Assembly (NCBI GenBank): GCA_030266325.1
Contig: JAJDHT010000002.1
Location: 52,551-116,550, forward strand
Origin: Ruminococcaceae bacterium OttesenSCG-928-I18
GTDB taxonomy: Bacteria; Bacillota; Clostridia; Oscillospirales; Ruminococcaceae
Direction of reading: 5' to 3'
DNA length: 64,000 nt
Under the pieces are notes generated by a model. That model worked only from the letters and a program-made list of their open reading frames with translations, ran no database searches and was not told the origin of the DNA. The translations under genes and the position numbers were made by a program. Shown here piece after piece: positions 33,289 through 63,824 of this stretch (within the stretch, counting starts at the first letter, position 1; the number at the start of each line of letters is the position of its first letter).

Positions 33289-33301
33289 CTTTATCACCTC
33301 C

Positions 33302-37425: not shown

Positions 37426-37439
37426 AAAGGAGAGCAAAA

Positions 37440-38066: not shown

Positions 38067-38093
38067 AATACAAACACACTTGAGGAGGAGACC

Positions 38094-40114: not shown

Positions 40115-40119
40115 GCATA

Positions 40120-40602: not shown

Positions 40603-40693
40603 AGTACTTCCCCCTCCACTAGCGTACACCTATTATACAGTACACCCCTGTGGGAAGCAACACGAAAAGGACAAAGCAGAGTCATGCGAAATC

Positions 40694-42475: not shown

Positions 42476-42622
42476 AATTTCCTCCTTGTGCACAAAAAGA
42501 CTAAAGACTGCCGACTAGCATGACACGCCAACATAATACCTAATAAAACTTTACCACACTACACAGCTACGGACAAGTACCAATTTTGACGCTGAACCCA
42601 TTAACTGAAAAGGAGCCTTCGT

Positions 42623-45836: not shown

Positions 45837-47209
45837 TATTCAATCCGCACGATTACCAGAAGCACTGTATCGACAAGGTGATTGAGATGCCGGCGTTGGC
45901 GCTGTGGCTTGATATGGGTTTGGGCAAGACAGTCATTGTGCTGACCGCCATCAATGAGCTGAAGTACAACCGGCTGCAGGTGCATAAGGTGCTTGTTGTG
46001 GCGCCAAAGAAGGTGGCAGAGGCAACCTGGCAGGTAGAAGCGAAGAAATGGGACCACCTGAGGCTACTGCGGTTTTCTGCCGTAATGGGCACGGCCAAAC
46101 AGCGAGAACGAGCCCTGGCGGTGGCGGCGGATGTGTATGTGATGGGCCGGGACAATGTGGACTGGCTGGTGCAATATTACCGCAACGATTGGCCCTTTGA
46201 CATGGTCGTTTTGGACGAAAGCAGCAGTTTCAAAAACCCGCAGTCGAAGAGGTTTAAGCGAATGAAGGCAGTGCGGCCGCATATCCACAGGATGGTGGAA
46301 TTGACTGGCACGCCGTCGCCTCAGGGCCTCATTGACCTGTGGGCGCAGATCTTCCTGCTGGATGGCGGGCAGAGACTGGGGCGGACGCTGGGCAGCTTTA
46401 GGGACAACTACTTCCTGCCGGACAAACGCAACGCGGAGCGGGTGTTCACCTACAAGCCCCGTGGGGGCGCTGAACAGACGGTGAAGGAATTGCTTTCGGA
46501 CATCTGCATCTCGATGAAGGCGGAGGACTACTTGAGCTTGCCGGAGAAGATGGAGAACGATATCCCGGTGGTGCTGGACCCGGCTGCAGACAAAGCATAT
46601 ACGCGACTCGAGAGGGACATGCTGCTGATGGTGGAAGAGGAGATGGTAACGGCCGGGACGGCGGGGGTGCTTTCGAACAAGCTGCTGCAGCTGTGTAATG
46701 GGGCGTTGTACGACGATGAGGGTCAGGCGCATGAAATCCACAAGTGTAAGCTGGAGGCATTTCTGGAACTGGTGGAGAGCCTCTGCGGACAGCATGCTTT
46801 GGTGTTCTACGCCTACAGGCATGACAGGGACAGGATATTGCAGGCGCTGGGCAAGAGGGCGAATGTGCGGTGCCTGGAGGGGCCGCAGGACGCGGAGGAC
46901 TGGAATGCCGGGAAAGTGGAGATCCTTTTGGCACATCCGGCCAGTTGTGCCTATGGGCTGAACCTGCAAGAGGGCGGGCGGCATGTGATCTGGTTTGGCC
47001 TGTGCTGGAGTCTTGAGCTAACCCAACAGGCGAATGCCCGGTTGTATCGGCAGGGGCAGAAGATGCCTGTGATCGTCCACCGCCTCATTGTGCAAGGTGG
47101 CCGTGACCAGGACGTCGTGGCGGCACTGGAGAGCAAGGACGATGTGCAGGAGAGCCTGCTGCAGAGTTTGAAGGCGAGGATTGCAGCTGTGAAGGGAGGC
47201 AGACGATGA
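45833..47209 (+). CDS. SNF2-family phage helicase
   Basis: A 458-residue protein. Walker A LDMGLGKTVIVL, DEAH-box-like VVLDESSSFKNP, TGTPSPQGL and a C-terminal SNF2 motif (ANARLYRQGQKMPVIVHRL). It starts at GTG, with GGAGGTGATGCC upstream, overlapping the VRR-NUC stop. It is an ATP-dependent DNA translocase; its pairing with VRR-NUC suggests replication-fork or recombination work. Confidence 0.9.
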   Translation: MIFNPHDYQKHCIDKVIEMPALALWLDMGLGKTVIVLTAINELKYNRLQVHKVLVVAPKKVAEATWQVEAKKWDHLRLLRFSAVMGTAKQRERALAVAADVYVMGRDNVDWLVQYYRNDWPFDMVVLDESSSFKNPQSKRFKRMKAVRPHIHRMVELTGTPSPQGLIDLWAQIFLLDGGQRLGRTLGSFRDNYFLPDKRNAERVFTYKPRGGAEQTVKELLSDICISMKAEDYLSLPEKMENDIPVVLDPAADKAYTRLERDMLLMVEEEMVTAGTAGVLSNKLLQLCNGALYDDEGQAHEIHKCKLEAFLELVESLCGQHALVFYAYRHDRDRILQALGKRANVRCLEGPQDAEDWNAGKVEILLAHPASCAYGLNLQEGGRHVIWFGLCWSLELTQQANARLYRQGQKMPVIVHRLIVQGGRDQDVVAALESKDDVQESLLQSLKARIAAVKGGRR

Positions 47210-48285: not shown

Positions 48286-48709
48286 CCAGTTTGTCCGGAA
48301 ATACAATCGTGCGGCGGCCGATATCGGCCTGATCCATTCCGTGACGTTGCAGCCGCCGGAGGGCACGAGCGATCCGCAGAACTGTGATGTAGTCGCGAGT
48401 GGTGGTGGCGTCAGCTTCCTGCTGTCGGTGGAGAACGGCCTGCTGTATGACCTGACTGTCCTGGCGCCGGTGGGCGGTAACGTCGAAGCCTGTCTCGTCA
48501 TCTTCCATCTGGTGATGGGGATAGCGGCGGGGATTTCAAAGAAAGCCTGCAACGGTGCATTGCGGCGTCTTGGGTTCTATGACAGCCGGTTCCTTCACGG
48601 CACCAAGACCCGGATTCGTGGCTATGCGGCCGAGGTTCGGGTCACGACACTGCTGGATATGAAGCACGTCATGTTCCAGCTTTTGAAACAGAGAGGACGA
48701 TCAGGATGA
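48275..48709 (+). CDS. Hypothetical phage protein (144 residues)
   Basis: Starts MTADQFVRKYNRAAADIG; the middle is hydrophobic (EACLVIFHLVMGIAAGIS) and the end basic. GAGGAGACAGACC precedes the ATG. No Walker motif is present, so it is not the missing terminase ATPase. Unknown function. Confidence 0.6.
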   Translation: MTADQFVRKYNRAAADIGLIHSVTLQPPEGTSDPQNCDVVASGGGVSFLLSVENGLLYDLTVLAPVGGNVEACLVIFHLVMGIAAGISKKACNGALRRLGFYDSRFLHGTKTRIRGYAAEVRVTTLLDMKHVMFQLLKQRGRSG

Positions 48710-49830
48710 TCCTTCACATGTGCCCGGTATGCCGACACCCCATTCCACAGCAGCAGCGGTATTGCCTGCAGTGTACCGATAGGGCCCAGCAGGATAGAGC
48801 AGAACAGCGAGCGGCAAGCTCGCGAAGGTATAACGCGCAACGCGATGGGAAGTACATGACGTTCTATCAGTCTCGCGAATGGAAGGTGCTGCGACAGCAG
48901 CTTCTCAGCGAGAGAGGGTATCGCTGCGAGGGCGAAGGATGTAACGACATCGCTGTAGAAGTACACCATACCCACCCATTGGACACACCGAACGGTTGGG
49001 CGAGACGACTAGACCCTACTAACTGTAGGATTTTGTGCACAAGATGCCACAATTTCCACCACAAAAGATTCGGTGGTGCAGGGCGGGGACAAATGAGACC
49101 GGGGGGTGCTTGTTACGTTGGCATTGACCTGTCGAGCGGAGGTGATCTTACAAGCATTGCGTTGGATTTTGACATTACCGATATGGTGAATACCCTGCCC
49201 ATAGAGATTCCACCGGCTGACACCCCCCAGCCGGTGAGCTATCTCTACTCCCACAGCTTCATGCCCAAAGGACGGTTGGATGAGCATATCAAAACAGACT
49301 TCGCACCGTACGACGAGTGGGCCAATGAGGGGCTCATCACCATCACCGGCGGGGACAGCGATTTCAAAAATGACTACAAATTCATCGTAAACCACCTGCG
49401 CGAGATCCAGGAGAAATATGACCTCACGTTTTTGGGAATCGCCTATGATCCACATAACGCGGATGCTTTTCTCTCCGACCTGGAAGAGTTCGGCGCGCCC
49501 TTGCTCGAGGTGAAACAGAGCGCTCGGTACTTGAACGACGCGACCGAGGATATCCGGCTGGAAATTAAGTCGGGGCGTACCCTGCACGACCGAAGAAACG
49601 CTCTGCTGACCTGGAGCATGGCCAACGCCAAAACTACAAAGAACAGTTTCGGGGAGATCAAAGTCGATAAGGAACCCACGGCCAGGAAGAAACGGATTGA
49701 CCCGGTGGACGCCTGTATTGACGCCCGGACCATGCGTATCAAGATGCCGCAGGGAATCGATGCCGCGGCCGAGATGGAAAAATACCTCGAAAGGATGGGG
49801 TGGAAAAAAACAGATGCCGAACCTATTTAA
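48706..49830 (+). CDS. HNH endonuclease fused to the nuclease domain of terminase large subunit
   Basis: A 374-residue fusion. Residues 1-125 are a phage HNH endonuclease: CPVCRHPIP zinc pair, CEGEGCNDIAVEVHHTHPL, NCRILCTRCHNFHH. Residues about 133-374 match the C-terminal RNase H-like nuclease of HK97-type TerL: CYVGIDLSSGGDLTSIA, LGIAYDPHNADAFLSDLEEFG, and DPVDACIDARTM. The TerL ATPase half (Walker A/B) and a small terminase, normally encoded between HNH and this domain, are absent. The frame is continuous, consistent with an internal deletion. It overlaps the previous gene end by 4 bases. Confidence 0.85.
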   Translation: MILHMCPVCRHPIPQQQRYCLQCTDRAQQDRAEQRAASSRRYNAQRDGKYMTFYQSREWKVLRQQLLSERGYRCEGEGCNDIAVEVHHTHPLDTPNGWARRLDPTNCRILCTRCHNFHHKRFGGAGRGQMRPGGACYVGIDLSSGGDLTSIALDFDITDMVNTLPIEIPPADTPQPVSYLYSHSFMPKGRLDEHIKTDFAPYDEWANEGLITITGGDSDFKNDYKFIVNHLREIQEKYDLTFLGIAYDPHNADAFLSDLEEFGAPLLEVKQSARYLNDATEDIRLEIKSGRTLHDRRNALLTWSMANAKTTKNSFGEIKVDKEPTARKKRIDPVDACIDARTMRIKMPQGIDAAAEMEKYLERMGWKKTDAEPI

Positions 49831-51145
49831 ATCTTTCACCGGGGCAATGGGTGGGTTTTTTAAGAACCTGACCAAATCCGGACGCCGGGAAATCATGACT
49901 CTCAATGAACTCATCGATTTTCTGAACCTGAGCGGTGTACCACGGGGCAAGCTGTCCGAAGCCACCTATTTCGCCTGCCTCAAAATCCTGTCGGAGAGCG
50001 TGGGAAAACTTCCGCTGCATCTCATGCAGCACCAGAAAAACGGGGGAGTGGACAAGGCCCGAGACCACCCCCTGTATTTCATCCTCAAGACTCGGCCCAA
50101 TCCATACATGACGTCGACTTCTTTCTGGGCTACTGTGGAAATCAACCGAAACCATTACGGCAACGCCTACGTGCTCATCAATAACCTCGGCAGTCCAAAA
50201 GATACCACACTGTGGATCCTCGACCCGACAAAAGTCCGTGTGTGGTGGGATGACGCGAAGATGCTCTCGACTGTTTCGGATGTGTGGTACCTCTACCACG
50301 CCCCCGACGGGAAAACCTACAAGTTTTCCAGTAGTCAGATCTTGCACTTTAAAACTTCCACGTCTTTCGATGGGATTACCGGTCTTTCGGTCAGCGAGAT
50401 TCTGGCCACCACCTTAAAGGGCGCGCAAAAAGCTCAGGATCTCGTTAACAAAATGTACGAGACCGGGTTCGTGGCAAAGGCGGTCGTGCAATATACCGGA
50501 GGCTTGAACGATGAGAACGCCAAAATATTCTCAAAGCAAATCGAGGATTTTGCTCTCGGGAAAGATGAGGACCTCAGGGCCATCATCCCCCTGCCGTATG
50601 GCGCACAGCTGAATCCCCTGAACATGAAGTTCACCGATGCCGAATACATGGCCGTCCGTAAACACACCGCCCTGCAGATCGCCGCGGCCTTCGGTATCAA
50701 GCCCAACCAGATTAACGACTACGAAAAAGCGAGCTATGCCAGCGCAGAAGCGCAGCAGCTCGCTTTTTACGTGGATACTCTTCTCTTCATCCTCAAACAG
50801 TATGAGGAGGAAACTACGTTCAAGCTGCTCGGGAAGGATGAATGTGCCAAAAAGGGCTTGCACTGGAAGTTCAACGTGTCGGTCATCCTTCGTGCCGACC
50901 AAAAAACACAGATAGAGACGCTCCGCATGGGCGTTGCGGGCTTCATCTATACACCGAACGAGGCGAGGGCGATGCTAGATAAACCGGCCCTGCCGGGCGG
51001 AGATCAGCTTGTCGGTAACGGATCTACCATCCCACTCACCAAAGTAGGCGACCAGTACCCGGCGGGAGGAGGTGAATCGATTAATGAATACGGAAAAAGG
51101 AATCATCCGGAAAGCAGCACAGGTGGGCCTGAAACAGGTCGATGA
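49814..51145 (+). CDS. HK97-family portal protein
   Basis: A 443-residue protein. It begins MPNLFKSFTGAMGGF; AYVLINNLGSPKDTTLW, HFKTSTSFDGITGLSV and QIAAAFGIKPNQINDY are portal motifs. It forms the DNA entry ring of the capsid. The ATG at 49814 lies within the end of the fusion gene. Confidence 0.92.
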   Translation: MPNLFKSFTGAMGGFFKNLTKSGRREIMTLNELIDFLNLSGVPRGKLSEATYFACLKILSESVGKLPLHLMQHQKNGGVDKARDHPLYFILKTRPNPYMTSTSFWATVEINRNHYGNAYVLINNLGSPKDTTLWILDPTKVRVWWDDAKMLSTVSDVWYLYHAPDGKTYKFSSSQILHFKTSTSFDGITGLSVSEILATTLKGAQKAQDLVNKMYETGFVAKAVVQYTGGLNDENAKIFSKQIEDFALGKDEDLRAIIPLPYGAQLNPLNMKFTDAEYMAVRKHTALQIAAAFGIKPNQINDYEKASYASAEAQQLAFYVDTLLFILKQYEEETTFKLLGKDECAKKGLHWKFNVSVILRADQKTQIETLRMGVAGFIYTPNEARAMLDKPALPGGDQLVGNGSTIPLTKVGDQYPAGGGESINEYGKRNHPESSTGGPETGR

Positions 51146-51821
51146 GAAGGATCTGGCGAAAATTAACCAGATGGCCTTGCGAACCCTGACCGCCGAGGAG
51201 GTTTTTGTGTTCAAATTGGCCATGTGTGATAACGAAATCGACCGTACACATGAAGCCTTCACGGCAAAAACCCTCACACAACTCGCGGCACTCTACGTGG
51301 GCCGGACCATCATCGCTGACCATGAACGCTCTACGCATAACCAGTGCGCCCGAATCTTCGACACGGAAGTGATCTCCGCTGCCGGCCAAACCGGCATCGG
51401 TGAGACATACAGCCAACTGGTAGCGCATTGCTACATGCTGAGGAACCCCGGTACCGAGGCAATGATCGCCGATATCGAAGGCGGGATCAAAAAAGAAGTC
51501 AGCGTTGGCTGCCGGATCGGCGCCGCTGTCTGCTCTGTGTGCGGTACGGATAACGTCAAAACTTGGTGCGATCATATCCCCGGTAAAGACTACGATGGCG
51601 AAAAATGCCATTTCCTGCTCGAAGGTGCCAAAGACGCCTATGAGGTGTCGTTCGTGGCTGTGCCTGCCCAGCCTAGGGCTGGTGTCATCAAAGCCTATGG
51701 CGCCCAGCCACCCGCGGGTACTGACGAACCGGATCCTGAAACAGAAAAAAACGAAGAACTCGCCGAAAGACAGCTCGAACTCAATCTCGCAGCTGCATTT
51801 CTATCATCCACAGATGTATAA
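51084..51821 (+). CDS. Prohead protease-like protein
   Basis: A 245-residue protein. The DHERS segment and KKEVSVG carry the His and Ser expected for the U35/HK97 prohead protease fold, but an unusual CxxC-rich insert (CSVCGTDNVKTWCDH) follows. EVSFVAVPAQPRAG closes the domain. It processes the capsid scaffold. GGGAGGAGG precedes the ATG at 51084, which overlaps the portal gene. Confidence 0.82.
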   Translation: MNTEKGIIRKAAQVGLKQVDEKDLAKINQMALRTLTAEEVFVFKLAMCDNEIDRTHEAFTAKTLTQLAALYVGRTIIADHERSTHNQCARIFDTEVISAAGQTGIGETYSQLVAHCYMLRNPGTEAMIADIEGGIKKEVSVGCRIGAAVCSVCGTDNVKTWCDHIPGKDYDGEKCHFLLEGAKDAYEVSFVAVPAQPRAGVIKAYGAQPPAGTDEPDPETEKNEELAERQLELNLAAAFLSSTDV

Positions 51822-51844
51822 CCCTGAAGGAGGTAATTGTACAC

Positions 51845-52984
51845 ATGAACGCTACAATGAAAGATCTTCTCGTGAAAATGCGGGCAAAACACAAAGAGGC
51901 CGACGCCGCTCACGTGGCTGGGGACAAGGACAAGACCGCGGCACTGCTGGTGGAATTCAACACACTGAAAGAGGAGTACGACGTCGCCGAACAGCTGTTC
52001 CAGGCCGAAAAGGCCCTCGTGCCGGATTTCAAAGAGGCCGAGGCCAAAGCAAAGGCCGGGTTCGAAGGGCAGACCGAGAACGGATATACACTCATCGGGA
52101 AAATTCTGCGCGGAAAACAACTGAGCGACAAAGAGGCTGCCCTGATCGTTGACGGTACCGACGGCGAAAACTACCTCATCCCCGAAGATGTGCGCCTCGA
52201 TATCATCGAACTGCGTAAGCAGTACAAGAGCGCCAAAGACCTTGTCACCGTCATCCCCACCGCGTCCATGACCGGCGGCTTCAACTTCGAGGCGGGCGGC
52301 ATCACAGGCCTGCAGGAGTTCGATGACGGCGACGATATCCCCGTGAGCGATCAGCCCAAATTTGAGCGCAAACCCTTCCGCATCGCGCTCAAAGGGAAAC
52401 TGATTCCTGTTTCCAATGTCCTGCAACAGGTGGAGAAGGCGGGGCTTTTGGCCTACATCAATGCCTGGTTTGTGAAAAATGCCATGTTCAGCGAGAACAA
52501 GGATATTTTCGACACCCTGAAAGACGGCCTCACCGCCAAGAGCATCAAGGGTCTGGATCAGCTGCGCAAGGCGATGAACAAGGATCTTGATCCCTCCGCT
52601 AAAGTGGGCGCAAAGATCGTCACGAACCAGACCGGTTTCGACCTGATGGACGAGGAAAAGGACGAAAACGGCCGCGGGCTGCTGCAGCCGGATCCGGTTA
52701 ATCCTACCGTCCTCAAATTCAAAGGGTACCCCATCGAAGTGTTCTCCGACAGCGAGCTACCTAACATCACCAGCACCACCAAGGCTCCGCTGTTCTTCGG
52801 CGCCATCGATGCTGCCGACTACTTCATCGACCTGATGGGGCTCCAGTTCGCGTCTTCCGAACATTTCCTGTTCGGGAAAAACCAGACCGCGCTGCGCGTG
52901 ATCGAAGGGTACGACAACCTGCAGGCCGATATCGGCGCGATCTTCTACGCAGGATTCGAAGCGAAACCGGTCACCACACCGTAA
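51845..52984 (+). CDS. HK97-type major capsid protein
   Basis: A 379-residue protein. An N-terminal coiled delta domain (residues 1-75, rich in K, E and A) is followed by the HK97 fold, with PEDVRLDIIELRKQYKSAKDL at the cleavage and N-arm region and FFGAIDAADYFIDLMGLQF near the end. GAAGGAGGT precedes the ATG. Confidence 0.93.
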   Translation: MNATMKDLLVKMRAKHKEADAAHVAGDKDKTAALLVEFNTLKEEYDVAEQLFQAEKALVPDFKEAEAKAKAGFEGQTENGYTLIGKILRGKQLSDKEAALIVDGTDGENYLIPEDVRLDIIELRKQYKSAKDLVTVIPTASMTGGFNFEAGGITGLQEFDDGDDIPVSDQPKFERKPFRIALKGKLIPVSNVLQQVEKAGLLAYINAWFVKNAMFSENKDIFDTLKDGLTAKSIKGLDQLRKAMNKDLDPSAKVGAKIVTNQTGFDLMDEEKDENGRGLLQPDPVNPTVLKFKGYPIEVFSDSELPNITSTTKAPLFFGAIDAADYFIDLMGLQFASSEHFLFGKNQTALRVIEGYDNLQADIGAIFYAGFEAKPVTTP

Positions 52985-53000
52985 CCCAGGGAGGTGCCAC

Positions 53001-53330
53001 ATGGCCGACAATACTGAGCCTGCAGAGGAGCTCCGGCCCGTGACTCTCCAGGAGGCCCGAGACTTTTGCAGCGACGATATCCAGGACGAGGCGAATGATC
53101 GGACGCTCACCATGCTCATCAAGGCGGCCGACCGGTACCTGCAGGACGCACTGGGAAAAGAGTACGATATAGACGACGAGAGGGCCAAGTTGTTGGCCCT
53201 CTCACTCGTTGACGAATGGTACAACGCCGGGGCCAAAACACAAAAGGTCAGCGCGAGTATCGAAAAAATGAAGTCCGATTTCCTGTTTCAGATTCGTGTC
53301 GGCGCGAAAGGGGCGCAGGAAAATGGCTAG
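53001..53330 (+). CDS. Head-tail connector (gp6/gp15-like)
   Basis: A 109-residue all-helical protein (TLQEARDFCSDDIQDE; AADRYLQDALGK; LLALSLVDEWY) matching phage head-tail connector family gp6. AGGGAGGTGCCAC precedes the ATG. Confidence 0.82.
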   Translation: MADNTEPAEELRPVTLQEARDFCSDDIQDEANDRTLTMLIKAADRYLQDALGKEYDIDDERAKLLALSLVDEWYNAGAKTQKVSASIEKMKSDFLFQIRVGAKGAQENG

Positions 53331-53625
53331 GCGTAAGCCCATCCAGGTACAGGCCTGCAACGAGGACGGCGAATGGGGGCATTTCGCCAATTGCCGCGCG
53401 GATATTACCGGCACCGGCGGTAGTGAGTACAACGCCGCAGGCGCTGAACAGGCATCGTTCCAGAAAAGGTTTCGCGTGAAGTACCACAAAAGCCTGGCAA
53501 ACCTCATCCCCCAGGCCACGCGCATCGTCTTCGATGAGAAAATGTACGACGTGGTCGCCATCGACGATTTCGAAGAACGGCATATCGAGCTCGTGTTCAG
53601 AACGGAGGCACGGCATGGCAGATAG
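53323..53625 (+). CDS. Head closure/adaptor protein
   Basis: A 100-residue beta-rich protein (GEWGHFANCRADITGTGG; RFRVKYHKSL; FEERHIELVFRTEAR) of the SPP1 gp16-like head-tail joining type. It overlaps the previous gene by 8 bases. Confidence 0.75.
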   Translation: MARRKPIQVQACNEDGEWGHFANCRADITGTGGSEYNAAGAEQASFQKRFRVKYHKSLANLIPQATRIVFDEKMYDVVAIDDFEERHIELVFRTEARHGR

Positions 53626-54010
53626 GACGGTCGGGCCTGATGGATTCGCCGCCGCGATCGGCAGCATCCTCCAGGAGTACGGTTCCGATGTTGTGGACGG
53701 TACAAAAGTTCTGACCGACAAGGTGGCAAAAAAAACCGTCTCGACACTTAAAAAGACCAGCCCCGTGGGACCCGGGAAAAGAGGCAAGAGGTATCGTACC
53801 AGATGGACCTCTACGGAACAGATCAGCAGCGTTTTTGGAAAGGTCGTGGCCGTACACAACACCAAGGCAGGGCTTACACATCTTACTGAACATGGACACC
53901 AGCTGCGCCAGGGTGGACGCACTCGCGCCATCCCCCACATCGCACCTGCAGAAAAACAGGCCGTTCAGGAGTTCGAAGAAGGACTGGAGAAGGTGATTCA
54001 GAATGGCTGA
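53615..54010 (+). CDS. HK97 gp10-like minor head/tail protein
   Basis: A 131-residue protein. VAKKTVSTLKKTSPVGPGKRGKRYRTRW and TEHGHQLRQGGRTRAIPHIAPAEKQ are the standard gp10 motifs. It connects head and tail. ACGGAGGCACGGC precedes the ATG. Confidence 0.87.
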   Translation: MADRTVGPDGFAAAIGSILQEYGSDVVDGTKVLTDKVAKKTVSTLKKTSPVGPGKRGKRYRTRWTSTEQISSVFGKVVAVHNTKAGLTHLTEHGHQLRQGGRTRAIPHIAPAEKQAVQEFEEGLEKVIQNG

Positions 54011-54347
54011 GTACATGTCTTGGGCTGAATGCGCCGACACAAAAGAGTGGCTAGAACAGACCGGCATCCGCACCACAGAGGCTTCCTTCCGCACCCCGCC
54101 TGCGTTCCCATACCAGACCTTCTTCGAATTTTGGGAGACGCAGGGCCCCGATATGGTGCCCGGCGCATTGCAACTCGTGGAAATTCACGTTGACCAGTAC
54201 CAGGAGACAAAAAACCGTGATCATGAGCATTTACTCGAAGACCTCCTCGCACAGGAAGGGGTCAATTACACAAAAGAACGTACGTGGGTCGACACTGAAA
54301 AAATGTGGCAGACCGCGTACGAATTCTCACTTTTTAAGAAAGGGTGA
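54003..54347 (+). CDS. Tail completion/minor capsid-tail protein
   Basis: A 114-residue protein with QTFFEFWETQGPDMVPG and EHLLEDLLAQEGVNYTKERTW. Its position between gp10-like and tail tube genes fits the tail terminator/completion slot. Motif support is weak. Confidence 0.7.
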   Translation: MAEYMSWAECADTKEWLEQTGIRTTEASFRTPPAFPYQTFFEFWETQGPDMVPGALQLVEIHVDQYQETKNRDHEHLLEDLLAQEGVNYTKERTWVDTEKMWQTAYEFSLFKKG

Positions 54348-54352
54348 CAAAA

Positions 54353-54934
54353 ATGGCTGAACCTAAACGCATCATCCTCGGTAGCGGGCATTTCTATGTT
54401 GCTGAGTACGATGCAGCACAAACCACACTGCCGACCGACAGCGAAATCGAAAAACCCGAAAACCGCCTCGGGTTTGCCAAGGGCGGCGCGGAGCTGGAAT
54501 ACAAACCCAGTTTCTACGAGGCCAAAGACGATCTTGGTCGCGTCGCAAAACAGATCATGACTGAGGAAGAGGCACTCATGAAGTCCGGCGTGATGACACT
54601 GAACGCGTCTACCCTTGAGCGCCTTAGCAGCACCGCACGTATTGACAGCTCTGCCCCAACCGGCAAACGCATCGTCAAGATCGGCGGCATCGGGAACCAG
54701 AACGGGAAAAAATACGTTATCCGGTTCCACCACGTCGACAAGGCTGACGGAGATATCCGCATCACCATCGTCGGCAACAACCAGGCCGGTTTCACCATGG
54801 CCTTCGAGCCCGACAAGGAAACGGTTGTCGATGTCGAGTTTAAGGCCCTGCCCATGGATGACGAGGGTACCCTCATCATCTACGAGGAATCCGACCCGAC
54901 AACCGATCCTGAGCCTGATCCTGAGGAGCCCTAA
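54353..54934 (+). CDS. Major tail (tube) protein
   Basis: A 193-residue protein. IILGSGHFYVAEYD at the start, KGGAELEYKPSFYEAKDDLG, and VDVEFKALPMDDEGTLIIYEE at the end are typical of the phage tail tube family. The last residues are acidic and proline-rich (DPTTDPEPDPEEP). AAAGGGTGACAAAA precedes the ATG. Confidence 0.85.
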   Translation: MAEPKRIILGSGHFYVAEYDAAQTTLPTDSEIEKPENRLGFAKGGAELEYKPSFYEAKDDLGRVAKQIMTEEEALMKSGVMTLNASTLERLSSTARIDSSAPTGKRIVKIGGIGNQNGKKYVIRFHHVDKADGDIRITIVGNNQAGFTMAFEPDKETVVDVEFKALPMDDEGTLIIYEESDPTTDPEPDPEEP

Positions 54935-54945
54935 AATATTACGGT

Positions 54946-54969
54946 CGCGCCCGGACAACTCCGGGCGCG
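54946..54969. terminator. Hairpin after the tail tube gene
   Basis: CGCGCCCGG pairs with CCGGGCGCG around ACAACT, 11 bases after the stop. It may limit transcription into the following reverse-strand cargo gene. It has no clear T run. Confidence 0.4.
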
Positions 54970-55050
54970 GCTGCATAGATTCTACATCCCTGCGCAAGGG
55001 GTGGAATTGTTCAAAGAGACATTCTTCCCCCTGCTATTGAGCACTCGCCC

Positions 55051-56667
55051 TTATGGCTGTGTTTCGATGATATTTATTCGAAATGTGCCTGTCGCTGTGT
55101 CTCCATTGTCATTCGTCGCTTTAGCAGAAATGGAATAGGTCGCAGCGACATTTGCATCAACCGTTGCATGCGCATTTCCGTTTGCGTCTACTACTATCGC
55201 AGGATCACTGGATGTCCAGGTGATCTCTTTCCCCTCAAAGGAACCCCAGGCTGTAGCTGTCAGCGCCACAACCTCCCCGGTGCTTTTGTTTAGATAAACC
55301 CTATCCGACGGCACTTCAATGCCTCCGAGAATAACCACCTCTACCAAGGTAGTTGCGATGTAGGTCGCTCCATAGGTTCCGGTTACTGACGCTGTCAAAG
55401 TAACTTCGCCTTCCTGGCGACCCGTCATATTTCCATGTTCGTCTATCATTACGAAACTTTCATTACTAACAGCGTAGTAGGGTTTTTGGTTTATCGCGTC
55501 GCCTGTGGTGTCAGCGACGGGGTGAGCTATCAGTTCGTCAATGTAAGCGTAGTATTTTGGCTTTGCGAAGGATATTCCTCCCAGAGGAATATCCGCTCTC
55601 ACGGTGACGTTGAGGAAAGCGAAGAGAGCAATACCTCTATCACCACCACCAGTCGTAGCATTAAAGGATGCTGCAACGGTGACGGGAGAGTTATCTGGGG
55701 TTTCTTTGAGGCCCGTTATGAGAGCGTCAGTCGAGGAGGAAGCCTGGTCTACTCTCACATTGTCCCCCCAGACCTCAACTTTCAAGTTGCTCACTGGAAC
55801 TTTCTTGATTTCTTTATGATTCGAATCCAAAAACATATAGCTCGCATTCGCTGTTTCGCCTACGCGAATATCCAGGGAAGTAGGGTCTACTACCAGGTAA
55901 GATGCCTCAGTAGTTATATACCACTTGTCGGCAGTAAAAGCCTCGTCGACACCATTTATACGCGTAGAGTGACTTGCTACCCCGGGAGGAGAAGAAGACA
56001 TTTTAAAGGCATTCTCTCTGATTTGTAAGTAGTAGATGTCTGCGAGAGCATTTCTACCGTCCACCGTTGAATTTAACACATCATCAAAGGTGGATGAGCT
56101 GTCTGCTACTGCCGCCTTCACCTCCACCGGCACAAAGGCAAATGTGGAACCTAGCAAGGTGAGGCAGAGGAGGAAGGAGAAAAGTCCTTTGAGTTTTTTA
56201 CGGTACCGGATAGCCAATACCAATAGTCCCACCGCCGCCAAGGCCAATATGCTTAGCAAAGCCAGAGGTGAATCGTCTCCTGTCTGGGGCGAAGTATGCC
56301 TTGCTGTGGCAGATTGGCTCACTGCCCCAGGCACTGTAGCAACCAAAGAAAACTCCTTCATCTCACCAGAGGCAAGTGCCCCTGTAGAGATGGACGTTGC
56401 ACCAGATTGAAGAACAAGCCCCTCAGGTAAGGTCAAGGCTAGCGATACGTCTTCCATATTCATTTGGTTGGTGTTGGTCACCTGCACCTTGATGTTGACC
56501 GTATCTCCTGATACATAGTCCGTTTTATCTGTGGTTAAATCTACCGTGATACCGTATTGCGTGACTGTTTCTGCCTGCACTGTGGTGGGCATAAAACAGA
56601 AGATAGCCACGACTACAAGCAGTATGACAGTTGCAATTAACGGAAATCTCCTTTTACTCGCTGACAT
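55051..56667 (-). CDS. Surface protein with internal sorting signal and a second export signal (prophage cargo)
   Basis: A 538-residue protein. Signal peptide (FPLIATVILLVVVAIFCFMP), then a DUF11-like adhesion domain (ITVDLTTDKTDYVSGDTVNIKVQV) of about 110 residues. A sorting signal SPQTGDDSPLALL plus helix and RYRKK lies at about residues 125-160, not at the end. It is directly followed by a second hydrophobic segment (LFSFLLCLTLLGSTFAFVPVEVKA) like a signal peptide, then about 340 residues of Ig-like (BIG_2) domains, with no C-terminal anchor. GGGAGGGG precedes the ATG at 56667. It has its own promoter. Confidence 0.75.
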   Translation of the reverse strand: MSASKRRFPLIATVILLVVVAIFCFMPTTVQAETVTQYGITVDLTTDKTDYVSGDTVNIKVQVTNTNQMNMEDVSLALTLPEGLVLQSGATSISTGALASGEMKEFSLVATVPGAVSQSATARHTSPQTGDDSPLALLSILALAAVGLLVLAIRYRKKLKGLFSFLLCLTLLGSTFAFVPVEVKAAVADSSSTFDDVLNSTVDGRNALADIYYLQIRENAFKMSSSPPGVASHSTRINGVDEAFTADKWYITTEASYLVVDPTSLDIRVGETANASYMFLDSNHKEIKKVPVSNLKVEVWGDNVRVDQASSSTDALITGLKETPDNSPVTVAASFNATTGGGDRGIALFAFLNVTVRADIPLGGISFAKPKYYAYIDELIAHPVADTTGDAINQKPYYAVSNESFVMIDEHGNMTGRQEGEVTLTASVTGTYGATYIATTLVEVVILGGIEVPSDRVYLNKSTGEVVALTATAWGSFEGKEITWTSSDPAIVVDANGNAHATVDANVAATYSISAKATNDNGDTATGTFRINIIETQP

Positions 56668-56694
56668 AAAACCCCTCCCTATCACCGAAATCCC

Positions 56695-56736
56695 TTCGAA
56701 CACGTTCATTTTAACAGTTCGAACACTGTATGTAAA
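56695..56736 (-). promoter_or_regulatory. Promoter of the second surface-protein gene with paired repeats
   Basis: Reverse strand: TTTACA (56736-56731), 17 bases, TAAAAT (56713-56708). TTCGAACAC occurs at 56695-56703 and 56718-56726, on both sides of the -10 box, 23 bases apart. The region 56740-56890 is strongly AT-rich compared with the phage genes around it and contains no gene. Confidence 0.6.
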
Positions 56737-56899
56737 ATAAAAAAAACAAGATAGATTGTTAATTGTTGCTCAGATGTTTTAAAGTTACGTGACAGCAGCG
56801 ATACTTAGTTGATTTTTGTAAAAGATTGATTCGAATTTCTTGGTTTAAATAATTGCCCCTTTCTTCTGCTTTGGAGGAAGGGGAAGGAGGCCTGCAAAG

Positions 56900-57232
56900 A
56901 TGGCAGATAGATTTTTTAGCTTCAAAAAAGCGAAACCGTCACTTTTTACGATCGAGCTGATCGATGGAAAGAAACTGCTCGTTAAAATGCCAAAGAAAAG
57001 AGTGTTTGAGCAGATGTCTGCGCTTGATGAACTGGATGAAAAAGGCGCGAGCGTGGACGAGCAGATGCTCGCCATCAGTTGTGTCCTGGCGGAAATACTC
57101 TCAAACAACATGTCCGGAATGCAGTTCAGCGCCGACGATATCGATGAGATGTTCGATTTTGAGGATAAAATGAACCTGTTCCGGGAATACCAAGAGTTCA
57201 TGTCTTCCGTCACTGAAACAAACCCAAACTAA
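56900..57232 (+). CDS. Tail assembly chaperone (gpG-type)
   Basis: A 110-residue protein. MADRFFSFKKAKPSLFTIEL, KRVFEQMSALDELDEKG and DIDEMFDFEDKMNLFREYQEF. It is located just before the tape measure gene, as lambda gpG is. The last codons contain the slippery heptamer CCCAAAC followed at once by TAA. GAAGGGGAAGGAGG precedes the ATG. Confidence 0.82.
   Translation: MADRFFSFKKAKPSLFTIELIDGKKLLVKMPKKRVFEQMSALDELDEKGASVDEQMLAISCVLAEILSNNMSGMQFSADDIDEMFDFEDKMNLFREYQEFMSSVTETNPN
57223..57229 (+). other. Programmed -1 ribosomal frameshift site
   Basis: C CCA AAC in the zero frame is an X XXY YYZ heptamer directly before the zero-frame TAA. Slipping by -1 joins the chaperone to the open frame that continues to 57507, giving a product of about 202 residues. 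Confidence 0.65.
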
Positions 57233-57507
57233 AACTCCCTCATTACCCCGTCCCCAGTAAGGAGGGAGAGATTTTTCCAATATTCACCAAAGGGGAAAAA
57301 TTGGTCATCGACTACACCGGACTTAACATCATAGATATCCAGGAGATGGACCTCGATATCTATTTGTTTTTTCGCCGGGAAGCTTACATCCATTTCCATA
57401 GCCAGACAAAGGAAGGACGCGACTACCTTCAGAACTGCTTTAGGATTGATCAGACTCGTCCTGACCGGACAGCGTTGCGTGAGAATTTTGGAAAGAAGGA
57501 GGGATAG
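57229..57507 (+). CDS. Frameshifted extension of the tail assembly chaperone (T part)
   Basis: This frame is open from 57217 to 57507 but has no good start: the ORF tool used a TTG at 57301. It encodes KLPHYPVPSKEGEIFPIFTKG, then DYTGLNIIDIQEMDLDIYLFFRREAYIHF. In lambda-like phages the chaperone G and its -1 extension T (GT) load the tape measure protein. The slippery site and the overlap support this. A start within AAGGAGGGAGAG-ATT is a weaker alternative. Confidence 0.65.
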   Translation, partial: LKLPHYPVPSKEGEIFPIFTKGEKLVIDYTGLNIIDIQEMDLDIYLFFRREAYIHFHSQTKEGRDYLQNCFRIDQTRPDRTALRENFGKKEG

Positions 57508-57509
57508 GT

Positions 57510-60500
57510 ATGGCTAGGGGAGCCATTAAAGGTATCGTTGTTGAGATCGGCGGCAAGGCCGACAAGCTGATCCGCGTCCTCAGTGATGTGGAAAAAAAGT
57601 CAAAGGGCCTCCAAAGTGAACTGAAGAACGTGGATCGACTCCTTAAATTTGATCCCAAAAATACCGAACTCCTGTCCCAAAAACAAAAAATTCTCGCCAA
57701 TGCCATCAAGGAAACCAAAAACAAGCTGGACACGCTCAAAGAGGCCGAAAAACAGGTGCAGGCACAGTTCGAGCGCGGCGAAGTGTCGGAGGAAGCATAC
57801 CGGGGCCTCCAACAGGAAATCATCGAAACTGAGCAGAAACTGAAATCGCTTACCAAACAGCAGCAGGACTTTGGCAGCGTGGCTGCCCAGCAGGTGGCCG
57901 TTGCCGGAGAATCGGTAAGGGCTTTTGGCGACGGTATGCAGACGGTGGGCCGCGCTATGATGCCCGTCACCGGGGCCGTGGTCGGGCTCGGGACCGCTGC
58001 CGCGGGTACCGCGATTGGGTTTGAGTCCGCGTTCGCTGGCGTACAAAAAACTGTCGACGCCACCGATCAAGAATTTGCCGTGCTTCGTGAGGATATACGA
58101 GGGATGGCTCTCGAAATGCCGCAGTCGGCTGAGGCCATCGCTGGCGTCGCTGAGGCCGCTGGACAGCTGGGCGTCGGTGTTGAGGATATCGAGGAATTCA
58201 CCAGAACCATGGTCATGCTGGGGGATACCACCAACCTTAGCTCCGAGGAGGCGGCCACGGCTATCGCACGCTTCACCAACATCACCGGCACTTCACACAC
58301 CGAAGTCGACAATTTTGGCTCTTCCCTCGTTGCCCTGGGTAACTCATCCGCGGCTACCGAATCGGATATCCTCTCTATGGCCACCAACCTCGCCGCCGCT
58401 GGGAGTCAGGTCGGAATGACGGACGCTGAAATCCTCGCCATGTCCGCTACCCTGTCCTCCCTTGGCCTCGAAGCTCAAGCCGGCGGCTCCGCATTCTCAC
58501 GGGTTATGAAACAAATGGCCACCGATGTGGAGCTGGGCGGTGGAAACATCGAAAACTTCGCCGAAGTCGCCGGCATGTCCGTCCAGGAATTCTCAGACCT
58601 GTTCAATAACGATGCCATGGGCGCTCTCAATGCTTTCCTTCTCGGACTTGGCGATACCGAAAGCATGGGCATGTCTACCATCGCCATGCTGGATGAAATG
58701 GGCATCACTGAACTGCGCATGAGTGATGCCCTCATGCGTACATCCGGATCCAATGACCTGCTCACTAGATCTCTGGAAACCTCCAGAACCGCGTGGGATG
58801 AAAACAACGCGCTTGCTACGGAAGCGGAAACACGATACCAAACAACCGAGAGCCAGCTCCTCATGCTCAAAAACCAGCTGGTTGATGTGGCCATCAGTTT
58901 TGGAGACGTCATGCTTCCGGTCATTCGCGATGTGGTCAACTGGCTGAAAAATCTCGTCGCACAACTGGGCACCCTAAGCCCCGAAACGAAAAAAACCATC
59001 GTCATCGTTGCGGCTGTTGTGGCGGCCATCGGCCCGCTTCTACTCATTCTGGGAAAGGTCATCTCGACCATTGGTACCATCATGACCATGGCACCCAAGA
59101 TCGTGAGCACCATCAAGTTGGTGGGTACTGCTTTCAAGGGCCTTGGCGCCGCGATGGCCGCCAACCCGGTCGGTCTCATCATCGCCGCTATCGTCGCTCT
59201 CATCGCTATCCTCGTGCTCGCATACAATAAATGTGAGTGGTTCCGGGAAATGGTCAACGATGCCTTCGCTCAGATCAAAGTGGCCATCCAGAACGCGATC
59301 CAGGCGGCAAAACCTGTCATCGATCAACTCATCCAGTCGTTCCAGAACCTCATGGAGGCTCTGCGCCCTGTCATCGAATTCATCGCCTCCTATGTCATAT
59401 CCATTTTTAGAGGCCTTGCGGCCGCTATCACACCCGTCATCGCCGCTATTAAAAACGTTATCGATTTTGTCACAAACATCATCAACGCTTTCAAAGCTCT
59501 CCTCCAGGGGGATCTCGACGGTTTCGTCCAGTACATACAGGCTGCTCTGCAAAATGTTTGGCAGTTCATCCAGAATATCGTCGACGCCATTGTGACCTAC
59601 GTCGTGACTTTCCTCGAAAGCATGGGCATCGACGTCAAAACCATTTTTCAGAATATCTGGCAGGCTATTGTCGGGTTCTTTTCCGGGATCGGGCAGTGGT
59701 TCGCCGACCGATTCACCGAGGCCCGCGATGGGATCGCGCTCGTGTTCTCCACCATCGGCACTTGGTTCGCCGCGCGTTGGGAGGATATTAAAGCGGCGTT
59801 TGCCGCCGTGGGTACCTGGTTCCAAACGGTCTTCCAGACCGCGTTCGACAACATCGTCTTCGTCTTCCAGGCAATCGGCGAGTGGTTCGCCGCGCGTTGG
59901 ACCGACATCACGACCGCGCTGGCTCTCGTGGGATCTTGGTTTCTCAATATGTTCCAGACCGCTTACAACAACGTGCTCAGCGTGTTCCAGGCCATCGGCG
60001 CTTGGTTTGCCGCAAGGTGGGCTGATATTCGTGCCGCTCTCGCTACTGTCGCCTCCTGGTTCCTCAATATGTTCCAGAACGCTTACAACAACGTGGTTAG
60101 GGTCTTTCAGGCCATCGGCGCTTGGTTCGCAGCTCGTTGGGCCGATATTAAGGCCGCCCTCGCTAATGTGGCGTCTTGGTTTTTGACTACTTTTACAAAC
60201 GCATATAACAACGTTAAGGCGGCCTTTCAGGCCATCGGTTCTTGGTTCAGTGCCCGCTACAACGACATCACCAATGCCATGAGCGGGATAGCAAGCTTTT
60301 TTGGAAATGTGTTCAACCAGGCTTGGGAAAACGTTAAGAGCGCGTTCTCCGGTGTGACTGCCTTCTTCCAAGGAATCTACGACACCATCACGGGAATCTT
60401 CAGCAACATCGCCAACTCCGTCAAGAACGCCATCAGCGGCGCCGTTGACTCCGCTAATAGCGTTCAGGCAGGAAGTGCATCCGTCAGAGCTATGGCTACA

Positions 60501-60767
60501 GGCGGCGTGCTGCGTAACGGCATGGCTGTCGTCGCTGAGGCCGGCGCACCCGAACTCATCGAAATGGTGAACGGTGAAGCTATCGTTACCCCGCTCACCA
60601 ACCGCGGTCCGGTTCCTGTTTCCGCCTCCGCCGGTGCTACCGCCTCGGGCGTCGTCTTGCATCAAAGCAATGCCTTCTTTAGCCCCAAAGCTCTCGACCC
60701 CGCTGAAACCGCCAGGCTGAACCGCCGCGCTACTCAGCGCACCGTCCTTCAACTTCGAAAGGGGTAG
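57510..60767 (+). CDS. Tape measure protein with 40-residue repeats
   Basis: A 1085-residue protein. The N-terminal coiled coil (residues 20-110; EKKSKGLQSELKNVDRLLKF), a transmembrane-like central segment (VAAIGPLLLILGKVI and IIAAIVALIAILVL), and a region of about five 40-residue units (FQAIGAWFAARWADIKAAL; 59747-60346, 120-base period) are visible. It sets tail length; 1085 residues suggest roughly 160 nm by the usual 0.15 nm per residue. GGAGGGATAGGT precedes the ATG. Confidence 0.92.
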   Translation: MARGAIKGIVVEIGGKADKLIRVLSDVEKKSKGLQSELKNVDRLLKFDPKNTELLSQKQKILANAIKETKNKLDTLKEAEKQVQAQFERGEVSEEAYRGLQQEIIETEQKLKSLTKQQQDFGSVAAQQVAVAGESVRAFGDGMQTVGRAMMPVTGAVVGLGTAAAGTAIGFESAFAGVQKTVDATDQEFAVLREDIRGMALEMPQSAEAIAGVAEAAGQLGVGVEDIEEFTRTMVMLGDTTNLSSEEAATAIARFTNITGTSHTEVDNFGSSLVALGNSSAATESDILSMATNLAAAGSQVGMTDAEILAMSATLSSLGLEAQAGGSAFSRVMKQMATDVELGGGNIENFAEVAGMSVQEFSDLFNNDAMGALNAFLLGLGDTESMGMSTIAMLDEMGITELRMSDALMRTSGSNDLLTRSLETSRTAWDENNALATEAETRYQTTESQLLMLKNQLVDVAISFGDVMLPVIRDVVNWLKNLVAQLGTLSPETKKTIVIVAAVVAAIGPLLLILGKVISTIGTIMTMAPKIVSTIKLVGTAFKGLGAAMAANPVGLIIAAIVALIAILVLAYNKCEWFREMVNDAFAQIKVAIQNAIQAAKPVIDQLIQSFQNLMEALRPVIEFIASYVISIFRGLAAAITPVIAAIKNVIDFVTNIINAFKALLQGDLDGFVQYIQAALQNVWQFIQNIVDAIVTYVVTFLESMGIDVKTIFQNIWQAIVGFFSGIGQWFADRFTEARDGIALVFSTIGTWFAARWEDIKAAFAAVGTWFQTVFQTAFDNIVFVFQAIGEWFAARWTDITTALALVGSWFLNMFQTAYNNVLSVFQAIGAWFAARWADIRAALATVASWFLNMFQNAYNNVVRVFQAIGAWFAARWADIKAALANVASWFLTTFTNAYNNVKAAFQAIGSWFSARYNDITNAMSGIASFFGNVFNQAWENVKSAFSGVTAFFQGIYDTITGIFSNIANSVKNAISGAVDSANSVQAGSASVRAMATGGVLRNGMAVVAEAGAPELIEMVNGEAIVTPLTNRGPVPVSASAGATASGVVLHQSNAFFSPKALDPAETARLNRRATQRTVLQLRKG

Positions 60768-60776
60768 TAGAAACCT

Positions 60777-61637
60777 ATGCGCAGACGTGTGGAGTTTGTG
60801 AATGAGGACAACTTGATCCTCAGCGCGGATTACAATCAATATTCCCCAGTTCGACTTCTGAAAATCGAGGGCGTGACTGCCATCACCAACAGTGTGGTCA
60901 CTACAGATAACTCTATGATCGATGGCTCTACACATCAGGGTACTACTACAAAAGAACGACATATCGAATTGACCTTCGAAATGTTCGAAAACTACAAACA
61001 AATTCGTGATATCCTCTATCTCGTTTTTAAACCGAAAACTACGGGGACCTTCTACTACACGGAAAACGGCGAGACTAGGAGGATCCAATACGAACCCGAG
61101 GATATCGACATCGATAACGAGGGTGTCGTTCGGAATATCGTGGTGTCTCTCAAATGCACCGATCCCTATTTCGAGGCCTTGGACGAGACTGTCGTCGATA
61201 TGGCCGCCTGGGATGCACTCTTTGAATTTGAACATGAATTCCTTGAGGAGGGCGAGGAACTCGCGACGCGAATCGCGGAAATCATCAAAGAGGTGCCGAA
61301 CGAAAGCGCTGCGAAAAATTTGGGTATTACGGTTCAGTTCACCGCCGAGGGTCCCGTCTTCGCGCCCGCTATCTACCATCTTGAAAGCGGAGATTTCGCT
61401 CGCGTTGCGGTTGATTTGATGGCGGGGGACTCGGTGGTCTATACCACGCATACGAATAACAAAAAGGTGTTCCTCTTCCAGGGCGGTGAAAAACGAGAGG
61501 TCAATGAACTGCTTGACGAAGATAGTGAGTTCATTCAGCTTGGCCCTAAGAAAAATACCTTGAAATATGACGCGGATTCTGGGATTGAGTACCTCAACGT
61601 CCAGATCATCTACCGGTTTAAGTTCGCGGGGGTGTAG
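60777..61637 (+). CDS. Distal tail (Dit-like) protein
   Basis: A 286-residue protein. FVNEDNLILSADYNQYSPVRLLKIEGV, ERHIELTFEMFENYKQIRDILY, and VSLKCTDPYFEALDET are the Dit/siphovirus tail component motifs. It forms the ring between tail tube and baseplate. The start is ATG 60777; the tape measure stops nearby. Confidence 0.85.
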   Translation: MRRRVEFVNEDNLILSADYNQYSPVRLLKIEGVTAITNSVVTTDNSMIDGSTHQGTTTKERHIELTFEMFENYKQIRDILYLVFKPKTTGTFYYTENGETRRIQYEPEDIDIDNEGVVRNIVVSLKCTDPYFEALDETVVDMAAWDALFEFEHEFLEEGEELATRIAEIIKEVPNESAAKNLGITVQFTAEGPVFAPAIYHLESGDFARVAVDLMAGDSVVYTTHTNNKKVFLFQGGEKREVNELLDEDSEFIQLGPKKNTLKYDADSGIEYLNVQIIYRFKFAGV

Positions 61638-61641
61638 AGAT

Positions 61642-62724
61642 ATGAATGACTATACCGCTCAGCGTAACAAGCCGATTCGCGTTTACTCTCCTCAGCTTCT
61701 TTTTCAGGGCATCATTGAAGATCATGACTCCCTGCTGTGGAAACGGCGCTATTACGAACCGGGAGAGTTTGAACTGAAAGCCCCCATCACCGACCACAAC
61801 CGTAACCTTCTCAGACCTGGGAACATCCTCACTCTGCGCAATGCGGGTGAGGCCATGTTCATCGAGGACTTGGAAAATGAGGATACCAGCAACGCCAAAC
61901 AACTCGTGCGCGCAGGACGGGCACTCTCGGCCTATTTCGATTTTCGTCGGATCGGGACGCCTTTAAACCCTACGGCCTATTTCTCTGGGCCCGTCGAAGA
62001 CGCGATGCACTTCCTCATAAACTTTTGCGCGCCCTTGCCTCTTGTCGAGTTGGGCAACGTTCAGGGGTTCCCTGAAGTGGTCGAGTTCCAGGCTACTATG
62101 AAGAACCTGTCCTCCTACCTCACTAAGCTGAGCCGCGCGTCGGGGATCGGGTACCGACTTCGCCCGGACTTTAAACAGAAAAAACTCTTCTTTGAGACTT
62201 ACAAAGGCGTCGATCGTACCCTGTCTCAAGGCGTTAATTCTCGCGTCATCTTCTCCGAGGCGTATGAAAACTTGAACGAGGTTCGGTATCGATACAACGA
62301 TCAGCTCTTCGCGACAGAGGTGGTGGTGGGCGGCGAAGGTGAAGGCACCGATCGCGTCTATGTCACGATCGGTGGGGGATCCGGTCTACAGCTCCGGCAG
62401 GGCTTCTGCGACGCTAAAGACCTGCGTAGCGATAACCTCTCACCGGCTCAATATCGGGCCAACCTCCGGCAAAGAGGGCTTGAATGGATGGCGGGACACT
62501 GCATTAACGAAAGCCTCGAGTTCAAAACCGACCCTACCGTTAATTTTAACTACCGCGAACATTACGATCTCGGGGATCTCGTGACCGCTGAAAAAAGAGA
62601 GTGGGAACAGCAAGTGGACCAGCGTCTTACTGAATTACAGGAAACCTATGAGCATGGAGGTATGTCGGTCGACCCCACCATGGGGGATCCGCTGCCTGAA
62701 TCTATTGATTGGAGGGATGAATAG
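61642..62724 (+). CDS. Gp37-like siphovirus baseplate/tail protein
   Basis: A 360-residue protein. FQGIIEDHDSLLWKRRYYEPGEFELKAP and LTKLSRASGIGYRLRPDFKQKKLFFETYKG match the ReqiPepy6 Gp37-like family, a tail hub protein. TAGAGAT precedes the ATG; the ribosome site is weak because it follows the Dit stop closely. Confidence 0.85.
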   Translation: MNDYTAQRNKPIRVYSPQLLFQGIIEDHDSLLWKRRYYEPGEFELKAPITDHNRNLLRPGNILTLRNAGEAMFIEDLENEDTSNAKQLVRAGRALSAYFDFRRIGTPLNPTAYFSGPVEDAMHFLINFCAPLPLVELGNVQGFPEVVEFQATMKNLSSYLTKLSRASGIGYRLRPDFKQKKLFFETYKGVDRTLSQGVNSRVIFSEAYENLNEVRYRYNDQLFATEVVVGGEGEGTDRVYVTIGGGSGLQLRQGFCDAKDLRSDNLSPAQYRANLRQRGLEWMAGHCINESLEFKTDPTVNFNYREHYDLGDLVTAEKREWEQQVDQRLTELQETYEHGGMSVDPTMGDPLPESIDWRDE

Positions 62725-63824
62725 TGGCTTCGAGAACTTCGTATTTTTGGAATTCCCGCGATCGTGATCGCGTCTATGACGCCGCCAGTTTCGAGGATTG
62801 GCTTATGCCGTTCTTCACCACGGGCGTGTTTAATGGGTGCTTCTCGGTCAGCGCCAACGACAATATGTCCGTCACACTGGTAGGGGGGCCTCTTGAGGTC
62901 AACAACCAACGGTGCGGCTTCGTTAACATCGGCGGGAAGGTCATGAAACAGGTCGGGGAGGAAGTGTTCGATGTGCCCACGGCGAGCGGGAATCTCTCTC
63001 GCATCGATCGCGTTGTCCTTCGCTGTGACAGGATCAGTCGAGATCTCTACCCACTCTATGTGGTGGGGAACTTTTCAAACAACCCCGCCCCGCCTCCTCT
63101 GGTTCGGGAACACGGTATCTACGACCTCTCTGTGTGTCAGGTGCATGTGGATCCCGGGGTGATTAAGATCACACAGGACAAGATCCAGGATGAACGCATG
63201 GATCCCGATGTGTGTGGCTGGGTGGCAGCGACTGTGGATGAAATTGATTTCTCCCAAATTACTGCACAGTTTGACGCCTTCTTCAGCATGTACTCGGAAA
63301 TGATCTCCGAGCAGTATCAAATATACCTCGCGCTGATCGATGGCAAAGTTGACGACGCTCAGGACGCCTACAACGCTTTCGTCGACCGGATGAACAGCTA
63401 CGAGGTGACCGCACAAGCTGAGTTCGAGGCCTGGGTCGCGTCTCTGAAGGACATCCTTGATGAGGAAGTGGCGGGACACCTGCAGCTTGAAATCGAAGAA
63501 TTACAAGCGCACGTCCCTGTGGCGAATATCGGTACTGTCGATTGCTCTCACGTGACGGATCAGAAGTTCCCAGTCTGCATCATCGGTGCCGCGGAATGGG
63601 CGTTTGGGTTCGGTGGGGCTGGTCTCGGGCCCTTTGGTGGCACGAACCTTTCTACCGTTCAGGCGGGCTACGAGTATGACGGGGCCGGCAGCATTTCCGT
63701 CACCGTGCCGCAGGCCTTTGCTGCTTTCACCAATTCTGCGCCCGTCGGTGAGAACCAGTTCTCTTTCTATCCCGATGATACAACCATCAACACTACTACC
63801 CTGCTCTTGCAGGTACAAAACTAA
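62724..63824 (+). CDS. Upper baseplate/receptor-binding candidate protein
   Basis: A 366-residue protein beginning GTG at 62724 (GGAGGGATGAATA upstream). SVSANDNMSVTLVGGPLEVNNQRCGFVN, then NLSRIDRVVLRCDR, are the phage baseplate upper protein motifs; a helical central region and a Gly-rich beta C-terminus follow. Position after Gp37 fits host recognition. Confidence 0.75.
   Translation: MASRTSYFWNSRDRDRVYDAASFEDWLMPFFTTGVFNGCFSVSANDNMSVTLVGGPLEVNNQRCGFVNIGGKVMKQVGEEVFDVPTASGNLSRIDRVVLRCDRISRDLYPLYVVGNFSNNPAPPPLVREHGIYDLSVCQVHVDPGVIKITQDKIQDERMDPDVCGWVAATVDEIDFSQITAQFDAFFSMYSEMISEQYQIYLALIDGKVDDAQDAYNAFVDRMNSYEVTAQAEFEAWVASLKDILDEEVAGHLQLEIEELQAHVPVANIGTVDCSHVTDQKFPVCIIGAAEWAFGFGGAGLGPFGGTNLSTVQAGYEYDGAGSISVTVPQAFAAFTNSAPVGENQFSFYPDDTTINTTTLLLQVQN

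Follow-up and report, generated by a model that had tools for sequence, protein, structure and literature searches.

A candidate two-product surface-protein precursor with an internal sorting signal, encoded in a Ruminococcaceae prophage

How should one understand a surface protein that carries its sorting signal in the middle of the chain and a second export signal behind it? The question is raised by a gene at positions 55051-56667 of the window, by which we mean the whole 64,000-nucleotide stretch analysed here, taken from contig JAJDHT010000002.1 of Ruminococcaceae bacterium OttesenSCG-928-I18. An earlier sequence-only reading of the window had noticed this order of elements and offered two outcomes: either both signals work and one gene yields two products, or the protein is a membrane hairpin with both of its domains outside. 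On balance, we favour reading the protein as a precursor of two surface products, with a portable N-terminal module of Clostridia as its basis.

The gene and its prophage setting

The gene is one uninterrupted open reading frame of 552 codons if counted from an upstream ATG at 56709, or 538 from the ATG at 56667; the latter has the Shine-Dalgarno-like sequence GGGAGGGG about 4 nt upstream. Residue numbers throughout are those of the 538-residue version. No good terminator was found downstream of the gene. Its features, with the basis of each assignment, are as follows.

55051-56667, minus strand: gene, 538 residues plus stop, ATG at 56667
56708-56736, minus strand: promoter-like site TTTACA-17-TAAAAT, with TG before the second hexamer (consensus match only)
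56572-56667, minus strand: signal peptide 1, residues 1-32, ending TTVQA (AxA-type site by rule)
56323-56571, minus strand: DUF11/Ig-type domain, residues ~33-115 (Pfam PF01345; beta sandwich in the model)
56275-56292, minus strand: sorting motif SPQTGD, residues 126-131 (motif and anchor models)
56206-56268, minus strand: first membrane helix (helix 1), residues ~134-154 (hydropathy, helix in the model)
56185-56208, minus strand: basic, predicted cytoplasmic loop RYRKKLKG, residues 154-161 (sequence)
56104-56184, minus strand: second signal-peptide-like segment (segment 2), residues 162-188 (hydropathy, AxA)
55054-56103, minus strand: passenger with Ig-like parts, residues 189-538 (Big_2, model)

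Behind the N-terminal Sec signal peptide, the first domain scores 28.2 bits against PF01345 (DUF11), above the Pfam gathering threshold of 24.6. Segment 2 ends VEVKA-AVA-D, where rule-based assignment gives possible cuts after A185 or A188. The Ig-like typing of the passenger, which spans some 350 residues, is weak, its Big_2 match of 19.9 bits lying below the cut-off of 22.8. An AlphaFold model of the protein, built with six rows, contains a helix at 8-24, a beta sandwich at 33-111 (pLDDT ~70-84) and helices at 134-154 and 160-176; the passenger is poorly modelled except for its last domain (pLDDT ~70-77).

The gene is surrounded by phage genes, of which the following are relevant here.

32152-33342: integrase
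36033-47209: replication genes
40694-42493, minus strand: second antisense surface-protein gene, between phage DNA polymerase and primase
48706-63824: terminase, head and tail genes
54344-54934: major tail protein
54935-56899, no strand assigned: insertion within the tail operon, lacking in 12 related viral contigs
56900-57232: small tail gene

The 55051-56667 gene thus lies antisense between the major tail protein and the small tail gene. In all 12 related viral contigs the next gene begins 15-134 nt behind the tail gene, while here the distance is 1965 nt. Judged from this gene order, the gene is prophage cargo (a putative moron), and the sequence-only reading is to be corrected in this respect. 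A search of four other genomes of the same genus gave no full-module match, which fits a mobile cargo gene, and no relatives of the whole protein were found in phage records or viral contigs. The product of the second antisense gene, at 40694-42493, has a signal peptide, His/Cys-rich repeats and SdrD_B/SpaA and CarboxypepD_reg domains, and is an ordinary sortase substrate with a C-terminal SPQTGD anchor. A prophage bearing two genes with sorting signals likely changes the surface of its lysogen.

The internal sorting signal

The LPXTG-like SPQTG with helix and basic tail that had been recognised by eye in mid-chain stands up to comparison with anchor models. The PxTG motif, the helix and the basic residues follow one another in the order of a sortase substrate (SPQTGD-helix-RYRKK), and the region scores above the cut-off against two NCBIfam models, LPXTG_anchor (19.4, cut-off 15.9) and srtB_target (19.1, cut-off 18.15); against Pfam PF00746 it scores 13.2, below the cut-off of 20. 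The source genome contains three sortase-like genes over cut-off and 11 sites coding for PQTGD, compared with one for the reversed pattern. Of the 11, seven are C-terminal signals of the ordinary kind, located 30-36 residues ahead of the stop; two have no helix behind them and one is placed early in a short ORF. The gene at 55051-56667 holds the only site at which a helix and basic residues are followed by a second export signal. The flanks of this internal signal, TSPQTGDDSPLALL, agree with those found around a standard one, TSPQTGDNAPLALF. In the source genome SPQTGD is the usual sorting motif, and it is the one in the C-terminal signals. We also observed a short ORF (L156, G000:C13:39912) whose N-terminal part holds PQTGD and a helix and which continues as a long acidic tail; it may be a broken sortase substrate or some other odd arrangement.

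Sorting signals normally lie at the very C-terminus, and this counts against a sortase step here: 412 codons separate the motif from the stop, so that it does not occupy the C-terminal position of a sorting signal. A review indeed defines the LPXTG sorting signal as a C-terminal motif (PMC5817068). Like LPXTG sortase substrates (PF00746 / TIGR01167), then, the protein has an N-terminal signal peptide, PxTG, a helix and basic residues; unlike them, it carries the motif ~410 residues before the stop and goes on to another export signal and then to a passenger.

A recurrent N-terminal module in Clostridia

The sequence-only reading had proposed a search for the same two-signal order in other Clostridia. 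That order recurs in 36 modules, distributed over 35 ORFs, 18 or more genera and three families of Clostridia, and with the ORF intact in the window the two-signal layout is confirmed. The module counts are lower bounds, since scoring covered, for each genome, just the candidates that came out best at first look. A profile built from six modules (A1) found the module in many genera of the window's own family and, in a phylum-wide sample, no full module outside it; a wider profile built from 21 modules (A2) found it in two further families of the same class. Some modules lie in single-contig genomes (2.7 and 4.4 Mb). Named genomes scanned with three modules as queries gave five loci, from uncultured Clostridia, one of which is a Ruminococcus sp. 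Paralogues lie close together in two genomes, G801 and G1161.

Several traits are conserved across the modules. The loop between the helices measures 6-15 residues and has a mean net charge of +4.6, with a minimum of +3, over all 36. The first charged residue is acidic in 33/34 cases after signal peptide 1, basic in 35/36 after helix 1 and again acidic in 29/36 after segment 2. By the positive-inside rule, this charge pattern would place both domains outside. An AxA-type site stands behind segment 2 in 35/36 members, the exception being L100, but shuffled windows give 28.2, so that composition supplies much of this signal. A stronger test, given the score of the shuffles on plain AxA, is to ask for AxA and then D/E within four residues. 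This combination is seen in 33/34 cases at signal peptide 1, in 1/36 at helix 1 and in 29/36 at segment 2, for which shuffles gave 19.0 (sd 2.7, maximum 27 in 5000 runs), a comparison that ignores the kinship of the members and in which the AxA part is partly carried by Ala-rich composition. In hydrophobicity, segment 2 ranks below helix 1 (paired p = 0.0009) and does not differ from signal peptide 1 (p = 0.18).

Cysteine is found in segment 2 in 32/36 members, compared with 17/34 for signal peptide 1 and 9/36 for helix 1, and sits near the cytoplasmic end of the segment. A reading of segment 2 as a lipoprotein signal was rejected: the Cys is where the hydrophobic stretch begins, and in most members the residue preceding it is Leu, Val or Ile. 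The LIGC of G801 is lipobox-like, but its tandem paralogue has LIGS.

The PxTG motif is present in 23 of the 36 modules and altered or absent in the other 13. Since the sorting signal is thus optional, the second signal rather than the sorting signal is the core of the design, and sortase action would not be general. The sequence-only reading was right to state both outcomes, two products or a hairpin; comparison moves the weight from the sorting signal to the second signal. Among the 22 module genomes searched, 21 contain sortase-like genes; only G801 has none, and all three of its modules lack PxTG. Loss of sortase as an explanation for loss of PxTG was nevertheless rejected, as it is true of G801 only and the other 21 genomes have sortase-like genes.

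The passengers behind the module are unrelated to one another. They include GH115, VWA with TSP3 repeats, lipase-like, subtilase, M4 peptidase, tyrosine phosphatase and InlB-type repeat proteins as well as unknown ones, and they range from small examples (~185 residues) to those of ORFs of up to 2877 residues (L104, with a subtilase domain). The long Ig-like region described earlier for the second half is consequently apt, if weakly so, for the protein in the window, but not for the family, where enzymes and adhesins take its place. Common to these unrelated passengers is a beta-hairpin directly behind the putative cut. When profiles were trained without the passenger group under test, the hairpin tile ranked first in 27 of 36 members (2.2 expected), and in the AlphaFold model of a family member, which likewise has the sandwich and then two helices, it has a pLDDT of 82-86, the rest of the passenger not being confident. 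The 55051-56667 protein itself has no clear hairpin behind the putative cut (rank 6 of 10 tiles), which counts against the reading favoured here. That a hairpin past the cut is conserved suggests a binding partner for the passenger that all members share; perhaps, at a guess, the Ig domain.

One further locus, L104 of G278, follows the two-signal plan with a first domain that is cohesin-like by eye instead of DUF11, followed by a FIVAR match.

One product or two

The events proposed for the precursor are these. Signal peptide 1 would start Sec export and then be removed, the DUF11/Ig domain would pass outside, and helix 1 would act as a stop-transfer sequence, leaving the basic loop in the cytoplasm. 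Segment 2 would then restart export and signal peptidase I would cut at its AxA site, so freeing the passenger outside the cell as a protein in its own right; in the case studied this is the Ig-like region, in other members an enzyme or adhesin. The N-terminal piece would remain membrane-held; in members with PxTG, such as the one described here, sortase would move its Ig domain to the wall.

That two-signal export is physically possible follows from mammalian IGSF1, which is processed on the same plan: a single ORF encodes Ig domains and an internal signal sequence, and signal peptidase cuts the protein into two halves (PMC9162367). The authors of that work know of no other cellular protein processed in this way (PMC9162367). 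IGSF1 works alike in being cut at an internal signal; it differs in being unrelated, eukaryotic, without sortase and a single gene. In the Clostridia, an internal signal with a signal-peptidase site behind a stop-transfer helix is a family-wide pattern, as judged by rule. FbcH of Bradyrhizobium, the cytochrome b/c1 precursor, is likewise split in two at an internal signal sequence, but the resulting proteins are respiratory subunits, with no portable module that carries unrelated passengers and no sorting signal. SlpA of Clostridioides difficile is one surface precursor that gives two surface subunits which stay together; it is cut outside the cell by the protease Cwp84 and lacks both a second signal and a membrane hairpin within the chain. 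DUF11 / NEW3-type domains, for their part, are mostly repeats in secreted or C-terminally anchored proteins, unlike the single DUF11 domain that here precedes an internal hairpin.

The individual parts, DUF11, LPXTG signals and internal signal peptides, are therefore known. None of the Pfam, NCBIfam and PHROG matches inspected belongs to a family that covers the module as a whole, and the open-licence literature yielded no bacterial case of an internal LPXTG, an internal sorting signal or a second signal peptide. The earlier remark that no named family has this plan agrees with our failure to find a named bacterial one. There is a fair chance that the module merits its own family name, and in Clostridia one gene probably yields two surface proteins along a route that seemingly has no name.

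The main rival to a cut precursor is a protein in which both segments stay in the membrane as helices, with the loop inside, the Ig domain and passenger outside, and the PxTG a relic or unused. The charge pattern and the pair of helices fit such a protein as well, PxTG is absent or altered in 13/36 modules, including those of the sortase-free genome, and a membrane tether would suit surface enzymes. An uncut hairpin needs no conserved signal-peptidase site, yet AxA with a following acidic residue is found at segment 2 in 29/36 members, as at signal peptide 1 (33/34) and unlike helix 1 (1/36), and the hydrophobicity of segment 2 is that of a signal peptide, lower than that of helix 1. This conserved signal-peptidase pattern speaks against the uncut protein and leads us to favour cleavage; we regard the absence of a cut as possible but doubtful. 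It is improbable, in our view, that the Ig domain serves instead as a membrane-tethered helper near the translocon, aiding the folding or passage of large passengers, whatever becomes of it later, before cleavage at segment 2 frees them. In favour of such a helper, passengers are large, in ORFs of up to 2877 residues, and unrelated, and structural comparison places the TRAP-beta subunits of the eukaryotic translocon nearest to the Ig domain. Many structures resemble an Ig fold, however, arrestins and complement also turning up here; nothing links the domain to the bacterial translocon, and small passengers of ~185 residues also occur.

There is, lastly, the suspicion that a sortase substrate was fused by chance to a downstream gene for a secreted protein, or that the assembly is in error, the arrangement having no selected meaning. 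Internal signals can arise by fusion, and part of the sequences come from draft genomes. Against this stand the recurrence of the module, 36 times over 18 or more genera and in part in single-contig genomes, and the homologous helix-loop-segment unit and common beta-hairpin across different passengers. The sequence-only reading had named homologues with the two halves as separate genes as the sign of an artefact; these were looked for and no split gene was found. Small SP-DUF11-TM genes of 165-191 residues in G278, G224 and G391 were considered as split homologues and rejected, as they adjoin no passenger. Chance fusion or misassembly is already refuted at the level of the family, and we attach next to no credence to it. 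As a separate observation, a small SP-DUF11-TM gene lies directly upstream of a gene that is SPFH-like by eye at three loci (L103, L106 and L150); the two, seen in three genomes of one genus, are likely a separate conserved pair.

If segment 2 is cut, as we favour, Clostridia have a standard route from one gene to two exported proteins, used for many enzymes and adhesins. Such proteins are today probably annotated as single LPXTG surface proteins, and large catalytic parts would therefore be placed wrongly, as anchored instead of free or the reverse. The common beta-hairpin behind the cut also poses the question of whether both products stay together. They might do so if, once the precursor is cut, the hairpin at the passenger's new N-terminus binds back to the Ig domain held in the wall or membrane, so that enzymes and adhesins are displayed non-covalently and 1:1; we put this capture in cis forward tentatively, as rather unlikely. 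At one locus (L139, G1109 contig C27) a 1246-residue ORF carries the complete two-signal module twice, and from its sequence three products would be predicted, the middle one anchored at its C-terminus.
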